From: Arthrobacter woluwensis
Lineage (GTDB): Bacteria; Actinomycetota; Actinomycetes; Actinomycetales; Micrococcaceae
Length of the DNA: 64,000 nt
Direction of reading: 5' to 3'
Assembly (NCBI RefSeq): GCF_030816155.1
Contig: NZ_JAUSXR010000001.1
Coordinates: 1,736,001 to 1,800,000 of the forward strand
The translations under genes were made by a program, and so were the position numbers. Below, one piece after another: positions 48,084 to 63,131 of the stretch (within the stretch, counting starts at the first letter, position 1; every line of letters begins with the position of its first letter). The notes below the pieces were generated by a model, which was given only the letters and a program-made list of their open reading frames with translations, had not been told where the DNA came from and made no database searches.

Positions 48084-49478
48084 TCAGGAGACGAGTACCC
48101 ACAGGAGGCTCGCCATGCCGAAGCCGACCACCGAGAGCACGGTCTCCAGCACGGTCCAGGTCTTCAGCGTGTCCTTGACGGACATGTTGAAGTACTTGGA
48201 GATGATCCAGAACCCGCCGTCGTTGACGTGGCTCGCGATGATGGAGCCGGACGAGATGGCCATGACCAGCAGGGCCAGCTGCGGCTGCGAGTACTGACCG
48301 GAGGTCAGCGCCGGGGCGAGGATGCCGCCCGTGGTCACGATCGCCACGGTCGCGGAGCCCTGGGCGATGCGCATGCCACAGGCGATCACGTAGGCCGAGA
48401 CGATGAGCGGCAGCCCGGCCTCGGACAGCGAGGTGGCGACGGCCTTGCCCACGCCGGTGGCGGCGAGCACCGCACCGAAGAATGCGCCAGATCCGACGAC
48501 CAGCAGGATCATGCCCACCGGACGCAGCGAGGAGGAGCTGAGTTCAGAGAGGTCCTTGGACGTCATGCCGTTGCGGATGCCCAGGAGCCACATGGCCAGC
48601 AGCACGGCGACCGTGAGCGCGATGGCGGGGTTGCCGAAGAAGATCAGCACGTCCCGGAAGCCTCCCGCCGGGAGGAACACGTTGCCGAAGGTCGCGCCCA
48701 GGATCAGGATCATGGGCAGGCCGATGGTCAGGGCGACGACGCCGATGTGCGGCTCGCGCCCCTTGGCCTCCTCGGCTTCCGGGACGATGCGGTCCTCGGG
48801 GACGTTCACCATGACGCGCTTGCCGATCCAGGTACCCCAGAGCATGCCGGAGACGAACCAGGCGGGGATGCCGCAGGCGAGGCCCATGATGATGATCCAG
48901 CCGAGTTCCACGTGGAAGAGGCCGGCCGCGGCCACGGGACCCGGGTGAGGAGGCAGGAACGCGTGGGTCACGGAGAGGCCCGCGAGGAGCGGCAGGGCGT
49001 ACAGGACCAGGGACTTGCCGCCGCGGACCGCGGCCACGTAGACGAGCGGCGCCAGGACGAAGATGCCGATGTCGAAGAACACGGGGATGCCGAGCACGAA
49101 GCCCGTGATGCCCATGGCGAGCGGGGTGCCCTTCTCGCCGAACACCTTCACGAGCCGGCCGAGCAGCACTTCCGCACCGCCGGAGCGTTCCAGGATGGCG
49201 CCCAGGACCGTGCCCAGGCCGATGATCAGGGTGATGTGACCGAGGATCCCGGCGAAGCCCTTTTCAATGAGGGCGTCGCTGCTCTTGATGGGTGAGCCCA
49301 CCAATTGCTCGACTGTCACGCCGCCCACGAGGGCCACGAGCACGCCCGTGCCGACGAGGGCGATGAAGGGTTCGACCTTCACCTTGATGATGAGGAAAAG
49401 CAGGAGGGCGATGCCCACGCCTGCCAGCAGGAGCAAGCCTGCTGTGTCGTGGCGCAGCCACGACAGGAATCCATCCAT
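48084..49478 (-). CDS. GntP-family gluconate/sugar-acid permease
   Basis: The 464-residue permease has about 12 hydrophobic segments and GntP hallmarks: PFIALVGTGVLVALVGG, ITGFVLGIPVFFDIGIFVLAPL, FLPPHPGPVAAAG and the C-terminal SHVNDGGFWIISKYFNMSVKDTLKTWT. The family imports gluconate, fructuronate, D-serine or related sugar acids. It is last in the minus-strand run aldolase-deacylase-dehydratase (131 nt gap), which supports a 2-amino or N-acylamino sugar acid as substrate. Confidence 0.93.
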   Translation of the reverse strand: MDGFLSWLRHDTAGLLLLAGVGIALLLFLIIKVKVEPFIALVGTGVLVALVGGVTVEQLVGSPIKSSDALIEKGFAGILGHITLIIGLGTVLGAILERSGGAEVLLGRLVKVFGEKGTPLAMGITGFVLGIPVFFDIGIFVLAPLVYVAAVRGGKSLVLYALPLLAGLSVTHAFLPPHPGPVAAAGLFHVELGWIIIMGLACGIPAWFVSGMLWGTWIGKRVMVNVPEDRIVPEAEEAKGREPHIGVVALTIGLPMILILGATFGNVFLPAGGFRDVLIFFGNPAIALTVAVLLAMWLLGIRNGMTSKDLSELSSSSLRPVGMILLVVGSGAFFGAVLAATGVGKAVATSLSEAGLPLIVSAYVIACGMRIAQGSATVAIVTTGGILAPALTSGQYSQPQLALLVMAISSGSIIASHVNDGGFWIISKYFNMSVKDTLKTWTVLETVLSVVGFGMASLLWVLVS

Positions 49479-49570
49479 GTTCTCTCCTTTGAGCTGTTCG
49501 CCTCCGGGGGCCGGGGCGCGGATGATTTAGTGGGGGGTCAGGGTGATGTCAGGGGGACGGAGTGTCAAAG

Positions 49571-49615
49571 CCCTGTGCCTCAGAGCCCGGTGCGTCAGAG
49601 CCCGGTGCCTCAGAG
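49571..49615. repeat. 15-bp tandem repeat, 3 copies, across the aldolase stop codon
   Basis: Units at 49571, 49586 and 49601 read CCCKGTGCSTCAGAG with one or two differences. On the minus strand each unit carries CTCTGA, so the aldolase stop TGA is re-copied twice in frame downstream. Confidence 0.75.
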
Positions 49616-50242
49616 TGCTTGGACGAAGGCCTTGGCGCGCGCGGTGATGTCGTCCCAGTCCCCGGCGTCGACGGCGGCAGGCGGCACCACGGAGGTGCCG
49701 CAGCAGACGGCCAGCGCACCGGCGTCGAGGTAGCCACGGGCGTTCCCGGCGTCCACGCCGCCGGACGGCAGGAGCTTGATCCCCGGGAACGGTCCTTGCA
49801 GGTCCTTCAGGTACTGCGGACCGAGCTGGCGGGCCGGGAAGATCTTCACGATCTCCGACCCGAGGTCCAGAGCCGCGGCGACCTCGGTGGGGGTCATGGC
49901 GCCCAGGCTGATGGGCACCCCGGCCTCCCGCGCGACCGCGGCCACGTCCGGACGCAGGCCCGGGGTGACGAGGAACTGAGCGCCGGCGTCGATGGCCTCG
50001 CGCGCCTGCGCCGCGGTCATCACGGTGCCCACGCCGACGACGGCGCCGTGGTCACCGGCGGTCTCGGCGGCACGGCGGAGGTGCCGGGTGACATCGGGGG
50101 TGGTGAAGGTGAGTTCCAGGGTGCGGATGCCGCCCTTGGCCAGGGCCTCCGCGAGGCGCGCGGCGTCCGGAATGGCCTTGGCACGGACCACGGCCAGGGT
50201 GCGGTCCTCCGCGAGAATCCGTTCGAGCTCCGAGTTGTTCAT
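49610..50242 (-). CDS. KDPG-type 2-keto-3-deoxy-phosphogluconate aldolase (Eda family)
   Basis: The 210-residue class I aldolase has the family motifs LAVVRAKAIPDAARLAEAL, ALxxGG-IRTLELTFTTP, GVGTVMTAAQAREAIDAGAQFLVTP and the Schiff-base lysine in EIVKIFPARQLGPQYLK, then LLPSGGVDAGN. It cleaves KDPG (or a close analogue) to pyruvate and glyceraldehyde 3-phosphate. It starts at ATG 50242, overlapping the deacylase stop by ATGA. Confidence 0.92.
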   Translation of the reverse strand: MNNSELERILAEDRTLAVVRAKAIPDAARLAEALAKGGIRTLELTFTTPDVTRHLRRAAETAGDHGAVVGVGTVMTAAQAREAIDAGAQFLVTPGLRPDVAAVAREAGVPISLGAMTPTEVAAALDLGSEIVKIFPARQLGPQYLKDLQGPFPGIKLLPSGGVDAGNARGYLDAGALAVCCGTSVVPPAAVDAGDWDDITARAKAFVQAL

Positions 50243-51915
50243 CGCTGTGCTGCTGTTCCTTCCGGGGTTCGGCGGAGCGCGCGGCCCGCGCGGGCTCCGG
50301 TGGGCCGGCCGTCGGCGATGGCCGCCGTGCCGTTGACGAAGACGTAGTGGATGCCCTCGGCGGCCTGACGCGGCTGCTCGAAGGTGGCGGTGTCCCGGAC
50401 GGTCTCCGGATCGAAGAGCACCAGATCCGCCGCGTAACCCTCGCAGACCAGACCCCGGCGGTCCAGCTTGAGGCGCGCCGCGGGCCGGCCGGTCAGATGG
50501 TGCACGGTCTCCTCGAGGCTGAGCAGCCCGAGCTCCCGGCAGTAGTGGCCGAGGTACCGGGGAAACGTGCCCCAGGCCCGGGGGTGCGGCTTGCCGCCCA
50601 CCAGGAGTCCGTCGCTGCCGCCGGTGTGAGTGCGGTGCACCATGATGGCGCGGACGTTCTCCTCGTGGCCGACGTGCTGGAGGATGCCCGTGCCGCAGCG
50701 GTCCTCGAGCAGGATCCCGGCGAAGACGTCGAACGGCTCGCGCCCTTCCTCCTGCGCGATCTGTTCGATGGTGCGGCCCACGTAGCCGGCCAGCGCCTGA
50801 TTCTGCACGCCGCTGATCTCCAGGGTGTCCCATTCGGCGACGACGCCGTGGCAGCCGTCGGATCCGTAGATCTCCACGTTCTCGCGGATCCTCGCGCGGG
50901 TCTCCGGATCGCGCAGCCGCTCCAGCGTCGCGTCCGTGCCGCCCGCGGAGGCCCAGCTCGGCAGGATCGCGGACAGCGTCGTGGCGCCGGGAAGGTACGG
51001 GTATGTGTCCAGGGTGATGTCCACGCCGTCGTCGAGCGCCTCATCGATCACGGCGAGGAGTTCGCCCGCCCTGCCCTTGTTCTCCGCGAAGTTCATGGTG
51101 GCGTGGGAGAGGTGCAGCGCACAGCCGGTGTCCCGGCTGAGGCCGATCATCTCGGCGTACGCGTCGAGCGCGCCCTTGCCGTACGAGCGGTGGTGCGGGG
51201 CGTAGAAACCCCCCAGCTCCCCCACCGTGCGGCACAGCGCGCCGAGTTCCTCGGTGGTCGCGTACATGCCCGGCGTGTAGGTCAGCCCGGAGGACATCCC
51301 GACGGCGCCCTCCTCCATCGCGGTCCGGACCACCTCACGCATGCGATCGACGTCGTCAGGGGTCGCCTCGCCCTCGTCGAAGCCCATGACGAGTGCCCGG
51401 ACGGTGCCCTGAGGCACGAGGTAGGCGGCATTCGTGGCGATCCGGCCGCCGTCGGCGTCCGGACGGTCCAGCCGGTCCAGGTACTCCCGCACGGACCGCC
51501 AGTCCCAGTCGAAGTCCTCGGGATTGTCGTTCCATCCGGCGATCTTCTGACGGACCCCGGCGAGCGTCGGGTTGTCCACCGGGGCGTAGGACAGGCCGTC
51601 CTGACCCAGGAGTTCCGTGGTGACACCCTGGCTGAGCTTGGCGTAGTGGTCCGGGGTGACCAGGAGCTGGAGGTCGGAATGGGCGTGCATGTCGATGAAC
51701 CCGGGGCTCAGGACCAGCCCGTCGCCCTCGATGATCTCGCAGCCGGGCTCCGCGTACTCCCGGAGCTCGCCGGGACCGGCGATGCGGGCGATCACCTCGC
51801 CTTGGACCAGCACGTCTGCGGCACGACGGGCATCGCCGGTGCCGTCCACGAGGGTGACGTTCGTGAAGAGGATCTGGGGAGCGTTGATCTGGGAAGCGCT
51901 GTTCTGGGAAGACAT
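50239..51915 (-). CDS. N-acyl-D-amino-acid deacylase (D-aminoacylase)
   Basis: The 558-residue amidohydrolase-superfamily enzyme has the metal motif GFIDMHAHSDLQLL, VTTELLGQDGLSYAP, a middle GLTYTPGMYATTEELGAL, LHLSHATMNF and a C-terminal HRTHTGGSDGLLVGGKPHPRAWGTF. It removes N-acyl groups from D-configured 2-amino acids. ATG 51915 has TAGGAG 6 nt upstream. The first residues form a 5-aa repeat (MSSQN SASQI NAPQI) that mirrors a 15-bp DNA repeat. Placed between a DSD1-like dehydratase and KDPG aldolase, its substrate may be N-acetyl-D-glucosaminate rather than a proteinogenic D-amino acid. Confidence 0.92.
   Translation of the reverse strand: MSSQNSASQINAPQILFTNVTLVDGTGDARRAADVLVQGEVIARIAGPGELREYAEPGCEIIEGDGLVLSPGFIDMHAHSDLQLLVTPDHYAKLSQGVTTELLGQDGLSYAPVDNPTLAGVRQKIAGWNDNPEDFDWDWRSVREYLDRLDRPDADGGRIATNAAYLVPQGTVRALVMGFDEGEATPDDVDRMREVVRTAMEEGAVGMSSGLTYTPGMYATTEELGALCRTVGELGGFYAPHHRSYGKGALDAYAEMIGLSRDTGCALHLSHATMNFAENKGRAGELLAVIDEALDDGVDITLDTYPYLPGATTLSAILPSWASAGGTDATLERLRDPETRARIRENVEIYGSDGCHGVVAEWDTLEISGVQNQALAGYVGRTIEQIAQEEGREPFDVFAGILLEDRCGTGILQHVGHEENVRAIMVHRTHTGGSDGLLVGGKPHPRAWGTFPRYLGHYCRELGLLSLEETVHHLTGRPAARLKLDRRGLVCEGYAADLVLFDPETVRDTATFEQPRQAAEGIHYVFVNGTAAIADGRPTGARAGRALRRTPEGTAAQR
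51871..51915. repeat. 15-bp tandem repeat, 3 copies, at the deacylase start
   Basis: Units at 51871, 51886 and 51901 fit GWTCTGGGRAGMSWT; the last contains the start codon on the minus strand. In frame it encodes a three-fold pentapeptide repeat at the N terminus. Confidence 0.7.
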
Positions 51916-51923
51916 CGTCGCTC

Positions 51924-53243
51924 CTAGAAGAAGGTCCGCACGGCGCCTACCACGGTGGGCGCGGCGGCGTCCCGCGTGGAATCGAGCACGGGGATCACGG
52001 TCCACTTGTCCAGGGCCGTGCACGGGTGGGAGAGGCCCAGGCGGATCACGTCTCCGGGCTTGACGTCCACGGTTTCGGGGAACCGCAGGAAGGCGTGCTG
52101 GTCGTTGACCGCCGTGATCTCGGCGTCGTCCAGGGGCACGCCGGGCTCGCCGAGGCCGGCGCTCAGGAACTGCGGGACGGGCAGGCCCTCGTCGAAGGGC
52201 AGGTCGCGCTTGCCGCCTTCGAGGATGGCGAGGCCCGGCTCGGGCTGGGAGACCACCCGCACCCAGGCGTGCATGGCGGACCGGAACGACTCCGGGCCGT
52301 CCGGATCCTGGCGGGAGAACGGCGAGATGCCGCGGTAGAAACCGTCATCGTGGACGATGTAGGCGCCGCTGCGGATCACGACGTCCACCCGAGGCGTGCC
52401 GTCTCCACCGCTCGTCCGGACCGGTCCGAGCACGTCCACGACGTCATCGAAGTAGGCGCTTCCGCCTGCGGTGACCAGCAGCTCGTCCGTGTCGTAGAGC
52501 CCCTCGGCGAGCAGCGCTTCGTGGAGCGCGACGACGTCGGCGAGGTAGCCGCGCACGGCGGCCAGGCCGGCGTCGTCGGCCGTGTGGGCGAGCGCGCCTT
52601 CGTAACCGCCCACGCCGACCAGCCGGAGCCGCGGGGATCCGTGGACCGCGCGGGCGATGGCCAGGGCTTCCCCGTGGCTGCGGGCTCCCGTGCGGCCGCC
52701 GTAGCCACCGCGTTCGACGATGACGTCCAGGGTTCGGTTCCCGCCGAGGCCGTCCCCGGCCAGTTCGCGGTCGAGCAGGGCGACAGTGTCCGGTGAGTCC
52801 ACCCACGAGACGATCCGGGCGCCGTCGGCGGCCTGCTCCGCGGCCCAGCGGATCGCCTGCGGGTCGGTGAGGCTGTTGGCGAGCATGAGGCGGGTGAACC
52901 CGAAGTGGCGGGCCACCCGGAGCTGCGCGGCGTTGGCGAGTGTGATGCCCCAGGCGCCGAGATCCATCTGCTGTGCCCACAGCTCGGGCGACATGGTGGT
53001 CTTCCCGTGCGGGGCGAGCAGAATGCCGCGCTCCTCGCACCATGCGGCGAGCAGCCGGGCGTTGAAGTCGAGGGCGTCGCGGTCGAGAGTGAGCAGCGGG
53101 GTCTGGAGACGGTCGAGTCCACGGCCCCCGAAGTCCGCGAGGCGGAGACCGTGCTGGGCCGCCGGCACGGCCTTGTGCCGGAAATCGAGGATCTCCTCCC
53201 CCAGGCTCCGGACCCGGGCCGGGTCGTACGTGGTCTCGCTCAC
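51924..53243 (-). CDS. DSD1-like PLP-dependent D-amino acid dehydratase/deaminase
   Basis: The 439-residue fold-type III PLP enzyme has an alanine-racemase-like N-terminal barrel with the cofactor lysine in APHGKTTMSPELWA (near 80). Its C-terminal D-serine dehydratase-like domain ends in the metal-site motif LSHPCTALDKW. Relatives eliminate water from D-serine, D-threonine or D-3-hydroxyaspartate, and D-glucosaminate dehydratase is thought to be of related type. It starts at ATG 53243, 8 nt before the deacylase, and leads the minus-strand operon from the palindrome-containing promoter. Confidence 0.9.
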   Translation of the reverse strand: MSETTYDPARVRSLGEEILDFRHKAVPAAQHGLRLADFGGRGLDRLQTPLLTLDRDALDFNARLLAAWCEERGILLAPHGKTTMSPELWAQQMDLGAWGITLANAAQLRVARHFGFTRLMLANSLTDPQAIRWAAEQAADGARIVSWVDSPDTVALLDRELAGDGLGGNRTLDVIVERGGYGGRTGARSHGEALAIARAVHGSPRLRLVGVGGYEGALAHTADDAGLAAVRGYLADVVALHEALLAEGLYDTDELLVTAGGSAYFDDVVDVLGPVRTSGGDGTPRVDVVIRSGAYIVHDDGFYRGISPFSRQDPDGPESFRSAMHAWVRVVSQPEPGLAILEGGKRDLPFDEGLPVPQFLSAGLGEPGVPLDDAEITAVNDQHAFLRFPETVDVKPGDVIRLGLSHPCTALDKWTVIPVLDSTRDAAAPTVVGAVRTFF

Positions 53244-53317
53244 TGGTGCACCTCGTCATCGTGGTCGCTCTTCCGGCTCTCACTGCGTGAGGAACCCGAA
53301 GGATCTGGCGTTGCGTA

Positions 53318-53339
53318 TTTTGCAATCGGTATTGCAAAA
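53318..53339. promoter_or_regulatory. Perfect palindrome in the divergent promoter, candidate IclR operator
   Basis: TTTTGCAAT-CGGT-ATTGCAAAA is a perfect 9+4+9 inverted repeat. It overlaps a -35-like TTGCAA (53332-53337) that lies 18 bp from TAGCAT (53356-53361) for the kinase-iclR transcript, and it lies 75 bp from the dehydratase start on the other side. The IclR regulator encoded in the operon is the obvious candidate binder. Confidence 0.65.
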
Positions 53340-53427
53340 CTTCTGACTTCATGTTTAGCATTGAGCCGGGGCCGCGTCAACGGATGCGGCCGGAATCGTG
53401 TGAGCAGACCGTCGCAAAGGAGCCGAG

Positions 53428-54423
53428 ATGCCACGAGCCATCTGCCTGGGAGAGACCATGGCGATGCTGACCCCGGGCGGCAATGGGAATCTGGAGACCG
53501 CGGACACCCTGCATCTCGGGGTGGGCGGAGCGGAGTCGAATGTCGCGCTGGGCCTCGCGGCGATGGGGCTGGACACGGCCTGGATCAGCCGGGTCGGCGA
53601 CGACGGTTTCGGACGGCGCATTCTGCGCGAACTCGAGCGGCACCGCGTGCGGACCGACGGCGTCCAGCTCGACCCCGAACGCCGCACGGGCCTCTATGTC
53701 AAGGTCCCCGGCGACGCCGCCACCGGCTCGGCGATGCTGTACTACCGCAGTGGCTCCGCGGCCTCAGCGATGGCCCCGGACCTGCTGGTGGATCCCGCCG
53801 TCGCGGCCCTGCTCGACGGCGCCGACCTCATCCACCTGAGCGGCATCACCGCCGCCCTCGGAGACTCGTGCCGCGACCTGCTCCTGGCTCTGCTCTCCCG
53901 GCCCCGCGACCGGCAGCTGATCAGCTTTGATGTCAACTGGCGGCCCGCCCTGTGGGAGGGCCGCGACCCGTCGGTGCTCCGCCGACTGGCCAATCTGGCG
54001 GACATCGTCCTCATGGGCAAGGACGAGGCTCTGCTCGCCTTCGGCACCCAGGATGAGCGCGAGCTCCGCGCCCTGCTGCCCGATCCGGCGGTGCTCGTCC
54101 TCAAGAATGAGGCGATCAGCGCCATCGCCCTGGGGCACGACGGCGAACGCTGGGAAGTCCCTGCGCTCCACGTCGAGGTGGTGGAGCCGGTGGGCGCCGG
54201 CGACTCCTTCGCCGCCGGCTACCTGAGCGGCGTGGTGTCCGGACTGGAGCAGCCGCTGAGCCTGCGCCGCGGACATGTCGCCGCCGCCTGCACCCTCACG
54301 GTCCACGGCGACCGGGGGCCGCTCCCGGACGACGAGGATCTCGATCGCATCCTGCGCTGCCCCGAGCGCGAGTGGGAGTCCATCACCGTGACGCACGGCC
54401 GCTTCCTGGTGGCGCAGTCATGA
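53428..54423 (+). CDS. PfkB-family sugar kinase, KDG kinase-like
   Basis: The 331-residue ribokinase-family enzyme has GGAESNVALGLAAMG near residue 32, YYRSGSAASAM near 110, FDVNWRPALW near 170 and the catalytic anion-hole motif EPVGAGDSFAAGYLSG near 255. The YYR-GSAAS and FDxNxRxxLW pattern is typical of 2-keto-3-deoxygluconate kinases. With the aldolase at 49610 it would give the KDG-KDPG-pyruvate route. It overlaps the IclR start by four bases. Confidence 0.9.
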   Translation: MPRAICLGETMAMLTPGGNGNLETADTLHLGVGGAESNVALGLAAMGLDTAWISRVGDDGFGRRILRELERHRVRTDGVQLDPERRTGLYVKVPGDAATGSAMLYYRSGSAASAMAPDLLVDPAVAALLDGADLIHLSGITAALGDSCRDLLLALLSRPRDRQLISFDVNWRPALWEGRDPSVLRRLANLADIVLMGKDEALLAFGTQDERELRALLPDPAVLVLKNEAISAIALGHDGERWEVPALHVEVVEPVGAGDSFAAGYLSGVVSGLEQPLSLRRGHVAAACTLTVHGDRGPLPDDEDLDRILRCPEREWESITVTHGRFLVAQS

Positions 54424-55166
54424 GCCAGAGTCTGCTGCGCGCCCTCGACCTGCTGTCCGCGCTGGCCGCCGGCCCCGCCACGCTGGACGAGCTGGCCTCC
54501 ACCGCCGAGGTCCACAAGACCACCGTGATGCGACTTCTGCACAGTCTCGAGGACCGGAGGTTCGTGGTCCGGGACGCCCAGCAGCGCTACCGCCTCGGCT
54601 CGAAGCTGTTCGAGCTCTCAAGCCTGGCGCTGGAGCAGCGGGACATCCGCAGTTCTGCCCACCCCTACCTGGCGCGGCTCAACGAGGCCACCGGGCACAC
54701 CGTGCACCTCGCCGCCCCGGAGGGCCGGGACATCGTGTACATCGACAAGCTGGAGTCCCGCCATCCAGTGCGCATGTACTCGCGGATCGGTCTCACCGCC
54801 GCGTTGCACGCCGCCGCAGTGTCCAAGGTGATCTTCGCGGATCTGCCCCTCGAGCAGCGGAAGACCCTGGCCGACAGCCTGGAGTACCCCCGCTACACGG
54901 ACAACACCATCACCGGCCCGGACGCTTTCCTGCGCGAGCTGGAGCAGGTGGCCGGCCAGGGCTGGGCGCTCGACGGCGAAGAGTTCGAGGAGTTCGTGCA
55001 CTGTGTCGCCGCGCCCATCCGGGATGCCGGCGGCCGGGTGGTCGCGGCCGTCTCCTGCTCGGTTCCCACCGTCATGCTCGACCGCGAAGGCCTCCTGGGT
55101 CTGCTGCCCGCGCTCCGGGAATGCACCGACGCCGTGTCGGCCGAGCTCGGGTACACGAAGCGGTGA
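54420..55166 (+). CDS. IclR-family transcriptional regulator
   Basis: The 248-residue regulator has an N-terminal winged helix (TLDELASTAEVHKTTVMRLLHSL) and a C-terminal GAF-like effector domain (GHTVHLAAPEGRDIVYIDKLES, MYSRIGLTAALHAAAVSKVI). KdgR of enterobacteria, which controls KDG metabolism, belongs to this family. ATG 54420 overlaps the kinase stop. It probably binds the palindrome at 53318. Confidence 0.93.
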   Translation: MSQSLLRALDLLSALAAGPATLDELASTAEVHKTTVMRLLHSLEDRRFVVRDAQQRYRLGSKLFELSSLALEQRDIRSSAHPYLARLNEATGHTVHLAAPEGRDIVYIDKLESRHPVRMYSRIGLTAALHAAAVSKVIFADLPLEQRKTLADSLEYPRYTDNTITGPDAFLRELEQVAGQGWALDGEEFEEFVHCVAAPIRDAGGRVVAAVSCSVPTVMLDREGLLGLLPALRECTDAVSAELGYTKR

Positions 55167-55243
55167 CGGCTCTGCGGCCGGGATGCCCGGCCTCCACCAG
55201 CACTTTCTTCCATCAGCACCACTGAGATCAGCAGCACTTAATT

Positions 55244-55290
55244 CAGCACCGAACCTGAACCAGCACCGAACCTGAACCAGCACCGAAAGG
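55244..55290 (+). repeat. 17-bp tandem repeat upstream of RidA, includes the ribosome site
   Basis: CAGCACCGAACCTGAAC occurs at 55244 and 55261, and a third partial copy at 55278 reads CAGCACCGAAAGG, supplying the AAAGG ribosome site. CAGCAC also occurs at 55198, 55214 and 55232, so the motif is repeated six times in about 86 bp. Confidence 0.7.
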
Positions 55291-55297
55291 AATCACC

Positions 55298-55702
55298 ATG
55301 AGCTCCAAGGAAATCGTCTTCACGGAGAACGCTCCGGCACCGGCCCACACCTTCTCCCAGGGGGTGAAGAAGGGCGGCCTGTTCCAGGTCTCCGGCCAGG
55401 GCCCCATGGATCCCGAGACCAACCAGTACATCGGCGACGGCGACGTCCGCGTCCAGACCCGTCGCACCCTGGAGAACGTCAAGGCCATCCTCGAGGCCGG
55501 CGGCTCCTCGGTGGAGGACGTCGTGATGTTCCGCGTCTACCTGACCACCCGCGACGACTTCTCCGCCATGAACGAGGTCTACGGCGAGTTCATCCAGGAG
55601 AACGTCCCGAGCGGCCAGCTTCCCAGCCGCACCACCGTGTTCGTGGACCTGCCGCACGAGGTCATGCTGGTCGAGATCGACGCCCTCGCCGTCACCGCCT
55701 GA
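55298..55702 (+). CDS. RidA/YjgF-family enamine/imine deaminase
   Basis: The 134-residue trimer-forming Rid-family protein has FSQGVKKGGLFQVSGQGP, the segment TRRTLENVKAILEAGGSS and the anion-binding Arg in LPSRTTVFVDLP. RidA hydrolyses reactive 2-aminoacrylate-type enamines released by PLP dehydratases. Its position by the DSD1-like dehydratase cluster fits that role. The start ATG 55298 follows AAAGG by 7 nt. Confidence 0.92.
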   Translation: MSSKEIVFTENAPAPAHTFSQGVKKGGLFQVSGQGPMDPETNQYIGDGDVRVQTRRTLENVKAILEAGGSSVEDVVMFRVYLTTRDDFSAMNEVYGEFIQENVPSGQLPSRTTVFVDLPHEVMLVEIDALAVTA

Positions 55703-60980: not shown

Positions 60981-63131
60981 TCAGAACAGGAAGTACCGCT
61001 GGCCCAGAGGCACGGTGTCCACGGGATCGCAGGTCACGGCCTCACCGTCCACTCGCACTTCATAGGTCTGCGGGTCGACCTCCAGCCGCGGGGTCTCCCC
61101 GTTGAACGGCAGGTCCTGTTTCCGCAGCGTGCGGATGCCGTGGACCGGCCGGATGACCTTCTTCAGCCCCAGCGAGGCGGCCACGCCCGCGTCCACGGCC
61201 GCCTGCGAAAGGAAGGTGATCGAGGAGGCTTGCACACTGCCCCCGTACGCGCCGAAGGCCATGCGGAGGGTCTGGGGCTGCGGCGTGGGGATCGAAGCGT
61301 TCGGGTCGCCCATCACGGAGTTGGCGATCGTGCCGCCCTTGAGGACCAGGTCCGGCTTGACCCCGAAGAACGCCGGATCCCAGAGGACCAGATCGGCGAA
61401 CTTGCCCACTTCGACGCTGCCCACCGAGTCCGCGATCCCCTGCGCGATGGCGGGATTGATCGTGTACTTGGCGACGTACCGCTTGATGCGGAAGTTGTCC
61501 GAGTCCGTGCCGGCATCCGGCTCCGTCGTGCTGCCGTCGGCGTTCAGGTGGCCGCGCTGGGCCTTCATCTTGTCGGCCAGCTGCCACGTGCGGGTCACCA
61601 CTTCCCCCACGCGGCCCATGGCCTGCGAGTCGCTCGACATGATCGAGAACACGCCGAGATCATGCAGCACGTCCTCCGCCGCAATGGTCTCGGGCCGGAT
61701 GCGGGAATCGGCGAACGCCACGTCCTCGGGGATGGCCGGGCTCAGGTGGTGACACACCATGAGCATGTCCAGGTGTTCCTCGGCCGTGTTGCGGGTGAAG
61801 GGGATGGTCGGGTTGGTCGAGGCCGGCAGGACGTTGGGCTGTGCCGCGATCGCGATGATGTCCGGCGCGTGTCCGCCGCCTGCGCCCTCGGTGTGGAAGG
61901 TGTGGATCACCCGGTCCCCGATGGCCGCCACGGTGTCCTCCAGGAAGCCGCACTCGTTCAGGGTGTCCGTGTGGATGGCGACCTGCACGTCGTATTGGTC
62001 CGCGACCTGCAGCGCCCTGTCGATCGAGGAGTGCGTGGCGCCCCAGTCCTCGTGGATCTTGAGCCCGATGGCGCCCGCGCGGATCTGCTCCGCGAGAGGT
62101 TCGGTGCTGCTGGCGTGCCCCTTGCCGAGCAGGCCGATGTTCATCGGGAACGCCTCGGCGGCCTGGAGCATGCGCGCGATGTGCCAGGCGCCGGGGGTGA
62201 CCGTGGTGGCCTTGGTGCCCTCGGCCGGTCCCGTGCCGCCGCCGATCATCGTGGTCACGCCGGAGGCCAGAGCGGTGGGGATCTGGTCCGGGGAGATGAA
62301 GTGGATATGGGTGTCGATGCCACCCGCGGTGAGGATCTTGCGCTCCCCCGCGATGATCTCGGTGGAGGACCCGACCACGATGTCCACGCCGTCCTGGATG
62401 AGCGGGTTCCCGGCCTTGCCGATCGCCTGGATGTGGCCGTCGCGCAGCGCGACGTCGGCTTTGTAGATCCCGCTGTGATCCACGATGAGCGCGTTGGTGA
62501 TGACCGTGTCCGGCACGTCGCCGCCGTCGCGGGTCACCTGGCCGTTCTGGCCCATGCCGTCGCGCAGCACCTTGCCACCCCCGAACACCACTTCCTCGCC
62601 GTAGACCGTCAGGTCCCGCTCCACCTCGGCGAACAGCCCGGTGTCGCCGAGCCGGACGCGGTCACCGGTGGTGGGCCCGTAGAGCTGCGCGTACTGCGTG
62701 CGCGGGATGGTGAGATTCGGCAAGGCACCCTCTTCACTCGCGACCGACGACGACGCCGCCGCCCCCGCGCCGTCGCTCCCGACCGCGTCATCCAGCGGGC
62801 CCTCGGTCAGTCCGCGGAGGCCGTACACCTCGCGCGCTCCGGCGAGCGGGACGAGCCGCACCGTCTTGGTGTCGCCCGGCTCGAAGCGCACCGCCGTGCC
62901 AGCCGGGATGTCGAGCCGGAGACCGTGCGCGGCCTGGCGGTCGAAGTCGAGGCCTCGGTTGGTCTCGGCGAAGTGGAAATGGGATCCGACCTGGACCGGC
63001 CGGTCGCCCGTGTTGGTGACCGCGATCTCGGTGACCGGGCGGCCCGGGTTGAGCGTGATGTCGCCGTCCGCTACCAGGGTCTCGCCGGGCGTGAAGGACG
63101 GGGAGGACGGGGTGCTGTTCTCGATGCTCAT
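60981..63131 (-). CDS. ureBC: Urease beta-alpha fusion (UreB-UreC)
   Basis: One 716-residue protein joins urease beta (residues ~12-113, [18 protein letters not shown].. to [16 protein letters not shown]) to alpha (from ~140, [20 protein letters not shown]) through a ~25-residue Ser/Ala/Gly/Glu linker. All nickel-site residues are kept: His275, His277, carbamylated Lys358, His387, His413 and Asp501, plus flap Cys460/His461. Each is exactly 141 more than Klebsiella numbering (134, 136, 217, 246, 272, 360, 319/320). No internal start with a ribosome site was noticed at the linker. It starts at ATG 63131, 8 nt after ureA, and hydrolyses urea to ammonia and carbamate. Confidence 0.95.

Follow-up and report, generated by a model that had tools for sequence, protein, structure and literature searches.

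An island of seven genes was examined in a 64,000-nucleotide stretch of the Arthrobacter woluwensis genome (contig NZ_JAUSXR010000001.1, positions 1,736,001 to 1,800,000; the window), where it forms two divergent arms that we interpret as a candidate catabolic route for an amino sugar acid (Table 1). In order of transcription, the minus arm carries genes for a pyridoxal 5'-phosphate (PLP) dehydratase, a deacylase, a 2-keto-3-deoxy-6-phosphogluconate (KDPG) aldolase and a GntP permease, and the plus arm carries those for a kinase, an IclR regulator and a RidA protein. Two gene pairs share a 4-base overlap, the deacylase stop running into the aldolase start and the kinase stop into the IclR start, which suggests that the genes form operons. 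Profile searches confirmed the positions, strands and families of all seven genes as called in a preliminary description of the window. No NCBIfam model matched the deacylase, dehydratase, kinase or IclR protein at its curated cut-off, and these four are therefore named at family level only. KdgR and BhcR were the top NCBIfam models for the IclR protein, both under the cut-off.

Table 1. Genes and intergenic site of the island, with positions in the window
Feature	Position	Strand	Profile match or composition
GntP-family permease, 464 aa	48084..49478	-	PF02447 406 bits, 1.9e-121; TIGR00791 366 bits, cut-off 292.75
KDPG/KHG aldolase, Eda type, 210 aa	49610..50242	-	PF01081 160 bits; TIGR01182 eda 194 bits, cut-off 156
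D-aminoacylase-fold amidohydrolase, putative N-deacylase, 558 aa	50239..51915	-	PF07969 140 bits
D-serine-dehydratase-like fold-III PLP enzyme, putative, 439 aa, GTG start	51924..53243	-	PF14031 D-ser_dehydrat 62.5 bits, 6e-17
Operator-like composite, three half-sites	53310..53336	none	GTTGCGTATTTTGCAAT 53310-53326 overlapping TGCAATCGGTATTGCA 53321-53336
PfkB-family 2-keto-3-deoxygluconate kinase, putative, 331 aa	53428..54423	+	PF00294 155 bits
IclR-family regulator, 248 aa	54420..55166	+	PF01614 and PF09339
RidA-family protein, 134 aa	55298..55702	+	TIGR00004 109.5 bits, cut-off 106.25

Genome contigs were searched with the deacylase, and the best 80 of at least 548 relatives were kept as named loci, each fetched with up to 10 kb on either side. 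Matches above set score thresholds were counted anywhere in a locus, and some loci were cut by contig ends. The dehydratase gene was present in all 80 loci, always directly upstream of the deacylase gene, and matches were found to RidA in 77 loci, IclR in 75, the kinase in 71, the aldolase in 59 and GntP in 57, a few of the IclR and GntP matches being distant or weak (IclR in L120; GntP in L061 and L118). All seven genes occurred together in 39 of the 80 fetched loci, and the co-occurrence that the preliminary description had proposed as a check is conserved across genera. The island was found in Arthrobacter, Rhodococcus, Nocardia, Tsukamurella, Kribbella and Streptomyces, and also, without GntP, in one Sporosarcina. 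Nine of the 12 loci titled Streptomyces had no aldolase match, and in six of those nine GntP lay on the opposite side of the island. When open reading frames (ORFs) were compared with a composition filter, no gene family outside the island was common to more than 16 of 100 fetched loci.

The interval between the divergent arms contains the composite site GTTGCGTATTTTGCAATCGGTATTGCA. Of the 78 usable loci (L097 and L120 being unusable), 76 carry the 17-mer RTTGCRNNNNNYGCAAY in the corresponding interval, the exceptions being L116 and L118, and 75 carry the second, spaced half-site pair. Because the motif was derived from the very loci in which it was then counted, the meaningful control is its count outside the interval: 4 copies of the 17-mer in the remaining 1,568,255 bases of the set. 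A stricter pattern, RTTGCRNANNNYGCAAY, occurred at a single place in this genome, where its reversed control had zero matches; each of the 20 genomes searched had some match, which did not in every case lie at the island, and nine of them also matched the reversed control. The site of L132 itself does not fit the stricter pattern. Loci L065 and L119 carried the motif, though no IclR match was found in them. The composite site may be bound by the IclR protein. DasR-like sites, defined by a consensus, were sought in 14 Streptomyces or Streptomyces-like loci, and none with fewer than two mismatches was found.

From the gene families, their synteny, the conserved catalytic residues and the intergenic motif, all of which were observed, we infer a scheme of reactions, substrates and IclR binding. 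GntP would import an N-acyl amino sugar acid, the amidohydrolase would remove the acyl group, and the PLP enzyme would release the D-configured C2 amine as ammonia and expel the C3 hydroxyl, giving 2-keto-3-deoxygluconate (KDG). The PfkB kinase would convert KDG to KDPG, and the aldolase would cleave KDPG to pyruvate and glyceraldehyde 3-phosphate. RidA may handle the released enamine or imine, and IclR would control both arms via the composite site. On balance we favour the view that the island is a self-contained catabolic route whose substrate is an N-acylated 2-amino-2-deoxy-aldonic acid, N-acetyl-D-glucosaminate (GlcNAc1A) being the most likely one. It is likely that the dehydratase product is a 2-keto-3-deoxy sugar acid. 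The KDG kinase and KDPG aldolase imply a KDG-type product, which ordinary D-amino acids would not yield. As the substrate, GlcNAc1A is our best single guess, with equal chances of being right or wrong.

The chemistry itself is known from marine bacteria. As described in sections of Jiang et al. 2022 (PMC9537276), the ong pathway was established in Pseudoalteromonas by knock-outs and assays: OngB, a D-aminoacylase relative, deacetylates GlcNAc1A; OngC, a relative of D-amino-acid deaminases, converts glucosaminate to KDG and ammonia; and KdgK makes KDG-6-P, the subsequent aldolase step being the authors' hypothesis. The authors found the RidA protein OngD essential but could assign it no role, and the ong clusters of Vibrio, Klebsiella and Serratia carry an additional aldolase gene. 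Under a rule of at least four genes more than 30% identical to the cluster of strain ACAM 620, the complete ong pathways reported were confined to Gammaproteobacteria apart from a single Betaproteobacterium (PMC9537276, section 17). The reaction order in the preliminary description is the same, up to KDG-6-P, as the experimentally shown ong order, and its KDG-kinase/KDPG-aldolase end is upheld by conserved residues and by the genome search, which turned up no second such aldolase. Its claim to novelty, that a D-aminoacylase relative would serve as an amino-sugar-acid deacetylase, had been anticipated in print since 2022 (PMC9537276), and Wang et al. 2025 have solved the structure of one such enzyme, PpOngB (PMC12017989).

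We compared the island with ong-type clusters of Pseudoalteromonas (L136, L137 and L138), Vibrio (L139) and Klebsiella (L140); the OngB of L137 matches PpOngB (PDB 9kb1) with 823 bits. As in the island, the clusters of Pseudoalteromonas prydzensis, Vibrio and Klebsiella group a D-aminoacylase-like deacetylase, a D-amino-acid-deaminase-like enzyme, a KDG kinase and RidA. In contrast, ong has an SSS symporter and a MurR/RpiR regulator, while the island has GntP and IclR instead; unlike in ong, no GH20 or TonB receptor gene was among the island's neighbour genes examined, and no lytic polysaccharide monooxygenase (LPMO) was found in the genome. Identities of the ong proteins to those of the island were 27-34%, and the island deacylase and dehydratase fall outside the OngB and OngC clades. 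Against the cluster of Pseudoalteromonas sp. CF6-2, the identities were 31.8% for the dehydratase, 29.8% for RidA, 28.9% for the deacylase and 27.4% for the kinase, one of the four exceeding 30%; against the Klebsiella cluster they were 34.4% for the deacylase, 33.7% for the dehydratase, 32.7% for RidA and 29.4% for the aldolase, with no kinase match. Neither cluster is the ACAM 620 cluster of the published rule.

The aldolases also differ, being of Eda type in the island and of the 2-keto-3-deoxy-6-phosphogalactonate (KDPGal) type in the Klebsiella ong-type cluster. In that cluster, a gene annotated as 2-dehydro-3-deoxygalactonokinase and the KDPGal-type aldolase gene (PRK09140 299 bits, cut-off 207) lie at L140:15514-16972, and these galacto-type genes might indicate a galacto rather than a gluco natural substrate of the Klebsiella cluster. 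Its deacylase (L140:11989-13428) had zero branch length to PDB 9g5m, which is titled D-acylase from Klebsiella pneumoniae; 9g5m carries all tabulated OngB contact residues and may be a GlcNAc1A-type deacetylase.

In other literature, passages of an Aeromonas chitin paper report a search for OngB and OngC with distant or no significant matches only (PMC11653859), the introduction of a 2026 paper on a chitin-degrading Antarctic Arthrobacter mentions the oxidative route (PMC13106269), and a passage of a haloarchaeal paper predicts a different glucosaminate route (PMC12343721). Judged by titles and abstract openings, we found no paper on an actinobacterial GlcNAc1A pathway. We regard the island as an actinobacterial variant of the known pathway, probably assembled independently. 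It differs from ong in the branches of its two key enzymes, the transporter, the regulator and the aldolase.

By its PF14031 match, PLP lysine and His-x-Cys pair, the window dehydratase belongs to the fold-III PLP D-serine-dehydratase-like family, and its nearest solved structure by sequence is the D-serine deaminase 3gwq. K81 and C408 were present in 77 of 77 relatives and H406 in 76; we take these to be the PLP lysine and the His-x-Cys pair, all present in the window protein. The enzymes 3gwq and OngC share these residues with the island dehydratase. The genome has a second PF14031 gene (L001, G000:C1:3043736-3044029), which scored 73.6 bits in the genome search versus 65.6 bits for the island dehydratase, and it matches the latter over 111 residues only, at 32% identity. 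Another deacylase/dehydratase/RidA trio was seen in Nonomuraea gerenzanensis (L153:7001-10004), whose proteins are 39, 37 and 43% identical to those of the window; its dehydratase stands on the island's side of the dehydratase tree split, yet outside the island clade.

The best solved relative of the kinase was the Thermus KDG kinase 1v19 (152.8 bits). Residues G34, Y90, R107, R172 and D259, the substrate residues of KDG kinases, were found in 67 of 67 relatives. The protein combines these with a PfkB domain, Y106 being variable among relatives and no NCBIfam equivalog reaching its cut-off. In the aldolase, which is above the cut-off of TIGR01182, E43, T73, P94, K133 and S160 were identical in all 58 aligned relatives and include what are presumably the catalytic Glu and Lys of Eda KDPG aldolases. 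Its matches to solved proteins were 110-149 bits for KDPG aldolases and 69 bits for KDPGal aldolase, and an Eda-type aldolase fits a gluco stereochemistry of the product. The genome yielded no other PF01081 match. The RidA residue R111 was present in 77 of 77 relatives.

The deacylase shares its fold with PpOngB (PDB 9kb1 and 9kb3; Foldseek TM-score 0.88-0.89 by target length) and also its fold and catalytic His/Asp set with the D-aminoacylases AfDam (1m7j) and BbDam (3gip). The AlphaFold model of the deacylase had a pLDDT (predicted local distance difference test) of 85.1, with residues 435-447, which include the catalytic Asp and Arg446, below 50. Its top Foldseek matches were 1m7j, 9g5m, 3gip and 9kb1 with nearly equal scores, and the fold is thus not decisive for the substrate. 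H77, H79, D106, H241, H271, D435 and R446 of the window protein were conserved in 80 of 80 relatives. The PpOngB positions H68, H70, Y194, H222, H252, Y285, D368 and R379, covering the four His, two Tyr, catalytic Asp and Arg, were likewise kept in all 80 island deacylases, and the acetyl-contact positions were small aliphatic (I/L at L116 and L/I at L370). Two deacylases about 50% identical to that of the window (L045 and L047) had kinase and RidA matches in their loci and no dehydratase match.

Several observations weigh against GlcNAc1A as the substrate or against the pathway itself. The metal-ligand Cys of PpOngB (C97) is replaced by Asp in all 80 relatives. These depart at the Cys from the subtype V amidohydrolase pattern of a Cys/His/His metal site plus a catalytic Asp, while retaining its two His and that Asp. 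At the PpOngB contact sites, E226 is Y, S290 is G and S292 is T in 80 of 80, and K254 is T in 74 or V in 6; S291 is A in 41, S in 29 and C in 10, and Q298 was left out as not reliably alignable. The substitution S292T lowers the kcat/Km of PpOngB to 1.3%, according to Table 1 of PMC12017989. A tree of 48 rows placed OngB among Cys-type D-aminoacylases and the island deacylases across a split with support 98/94, with long-branch warnings for L052, one Deinococcus row and one Comamonadaceae row. The island's side of this split includes haloarchaeal, Cetobacterium and Rhodovastum enzymes, all with the Asp, and our literature search found no activity report for any member of the island deacylase clade. 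Membership of the OngB family was rejected, since neither the contact residues nor the clade fit. For the same reasons, together with the missing metal ligand, the precise substrate given in the preliminary description is not supported. The dehydratase tree (38 rows) similarly grouped OngC with 3gwq and placed the island dehydratases across a 98/97 split. In the kinase, Y106, which we take to be a KDG-contact position, was present in only 52 of 67 relatives. Nine of the 80 loci had no kinase match and 21 had no aldolase match, some of these loci being end-cut. The Asp-type D-aminoacylases of Cetobacterium and Rhodovastum (L142:5529-9599 and L144:2545-6593) adjoin dpaL and a YgeY selenium-linked hydrolase and make up a further, unassigned group on the Asp side of the deacylase tree.

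The link to oxidised chitin was also examined through LPMO, and it adds to the points against GlcNAc1A. No LPMO (PF03067) match was found in this genome (assembly 95.4% complete), which had one GH18 match of 49 bits; LPMO was found in only 14 of 49 searched island-bearing genomes and in none of the 12 carriers from Micrococcaceae genera (L053-L063 and L067). If GlcNAc1A is the substrate, many carriers must scavenge it, LPMO not having been found in them. In a class-wide sample of 296 genomes, LPMO occurred in 30 of the 35 genomes with a deacylase at E <= 1e-170 versus 55 of the 261 others. However, 26 of those 35 belong to one family (f25), which we take to be Streptomyces-like, and outside it the proportions were 4 of 9 versus 54 of 260 (Fisher p 0.10). 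There is no clear link between deacylase and LPMO, since both are common in f25, where shared ancestry confounds the association.

These observations bear differently on the alternatives. A different N-acyl amino sugar acid, with a non-acetyl acyl group or as the other C3 epimer, is an unlikely but serious candidate, in which case the deacylase would not be a GlcNAc1A deacetylase. In its favour are the missing OngB contact residues, the stretch corresponding to PpOngB 280-368, which is about 47 residues longer in the island deacylase by alignment, and the 35 of 49 searched carriers in which LPMO was not found; a different C3 epimer would still give KDG because the elimination destroys the C3 configuration. 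On the other hand, GlcNAc1A is the compound with a demonstrated matching pathway, according to sections of PMC9537276, and the acetyl-contact positions remain small aliphatic.

Plain use of D-amino acids was rejected, as the KDG kinase and KDPG aldolase are conserved. We consider it quite improbable that the deacylase and dehydratase degrade N-acyl-D-amino acids or free beta-hydroxy D-amino acids (D-serine, D-threonine) while the kinase and aldolase are given over to a second sugar acid under the same GntP import and IclR control. The family names fit such a division, D-serine and D-threonine are further substrates of OngC (PMC9537276, section 13), some dehydratase relatives elsewhere adjoin amino-acid ABC transporters and RidA, and seven of the 80 loci (L065, L101, L105, L114, L118, L119 and L131) have the deacylase, dehydratase, RidA and GntP with no kinase or aldolase match. 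Yet the kinase was matched in 71 loci, its gene and that of the dehydratase point away from one conserved motif between them, and the genome search turned up no second KDPG aldolase, so that a separate KDPG sugar-acid route is not evident. The hydrophobic pocket of AfDam is also partly polar in the island deacylases: positions F191 and M254 (T212 and N275 in the window protein) are T in 74 of 80 and N in 80 of 80, while M346 is V in 80 of 80 and still hydrophobic. Where PpOngB has S290 and S292, AfDam resembles the island deacylases in having Gly and Thr (BbDam being outside the alignment). The island deacylases differ from AfDam in having Asp as the counterpart of the metal-ligand Cys and either Thr or Val in place of the carboxylate-binding Lys. 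That unrelated genes became neighbours by chance is refuted by the synteny: gene order is conserved over many genera together with the intergenic motif, and nothing was found in its favour.

Beyond the named loci, 94 of the 296 genomes of the class-wide sample had a deacylase match at E <= 1e-60, a count that takes in distant paralogues; the sample's two other genomes of the window's own family had no match at this threshold. A close deacylase was present in 26 of the 27 genomes of family f25, among the genomes listed. The Firmicute Sporosarcina beigongshangi (L066) carries six of the seven genes with 59-84% identity to the window proteins, with no GntP match and with an LPMO match in its genome. 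The presence of the island in this Firmicute suggests transfer, and its origin from actinobacteria is probable.

The genes flanking the island encode a xylose-isomerase-like TIM barrel, ROK, Gfo/Idh/MocA and ThuA proteins on one side and YitT, NicO and urease-type proteins on the other, and no connection to the island was seen in those inspected. Positions 62273-62567 (+) of the window match Rfam RF02514 (5' ureB antisense small RNA) with 108.7 bits (cut-off 40), antisense to a 716-aa ORF at 60981-63131 (-) read by eye as fused urease beta and alpha subunits. This match may only mirror the conservation of urease coding sequence.

We tentatively propose, as an idea that may well prove wrong, that actinobacteria assembled this pathway independently of the marine ong, that the Asp-type metalloenzyme represents a second, separately evolved family of amino-sugar-acid de-N-acetylases, and that the island is the missing route by which soil actinobacteria, including Streptomyces, use the LPMO-oxidised chitin ends produced by themselves or their neighbours. 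If the island does the job of ong, the complete oxidative chitin route, published only for Gammaproteobacteria and a single Betaproteobacterium, would also be widespread in soil actinobacteria, and labels such as D-aminoacylase or alanine racemase (the latter seen in Tsukamurella) would be wrong for its genes. Independently of this, the exchange of the metal-binding Cys for an invariant Asp poses a directly testable question about catalysis in the D-aminoacylase fold.

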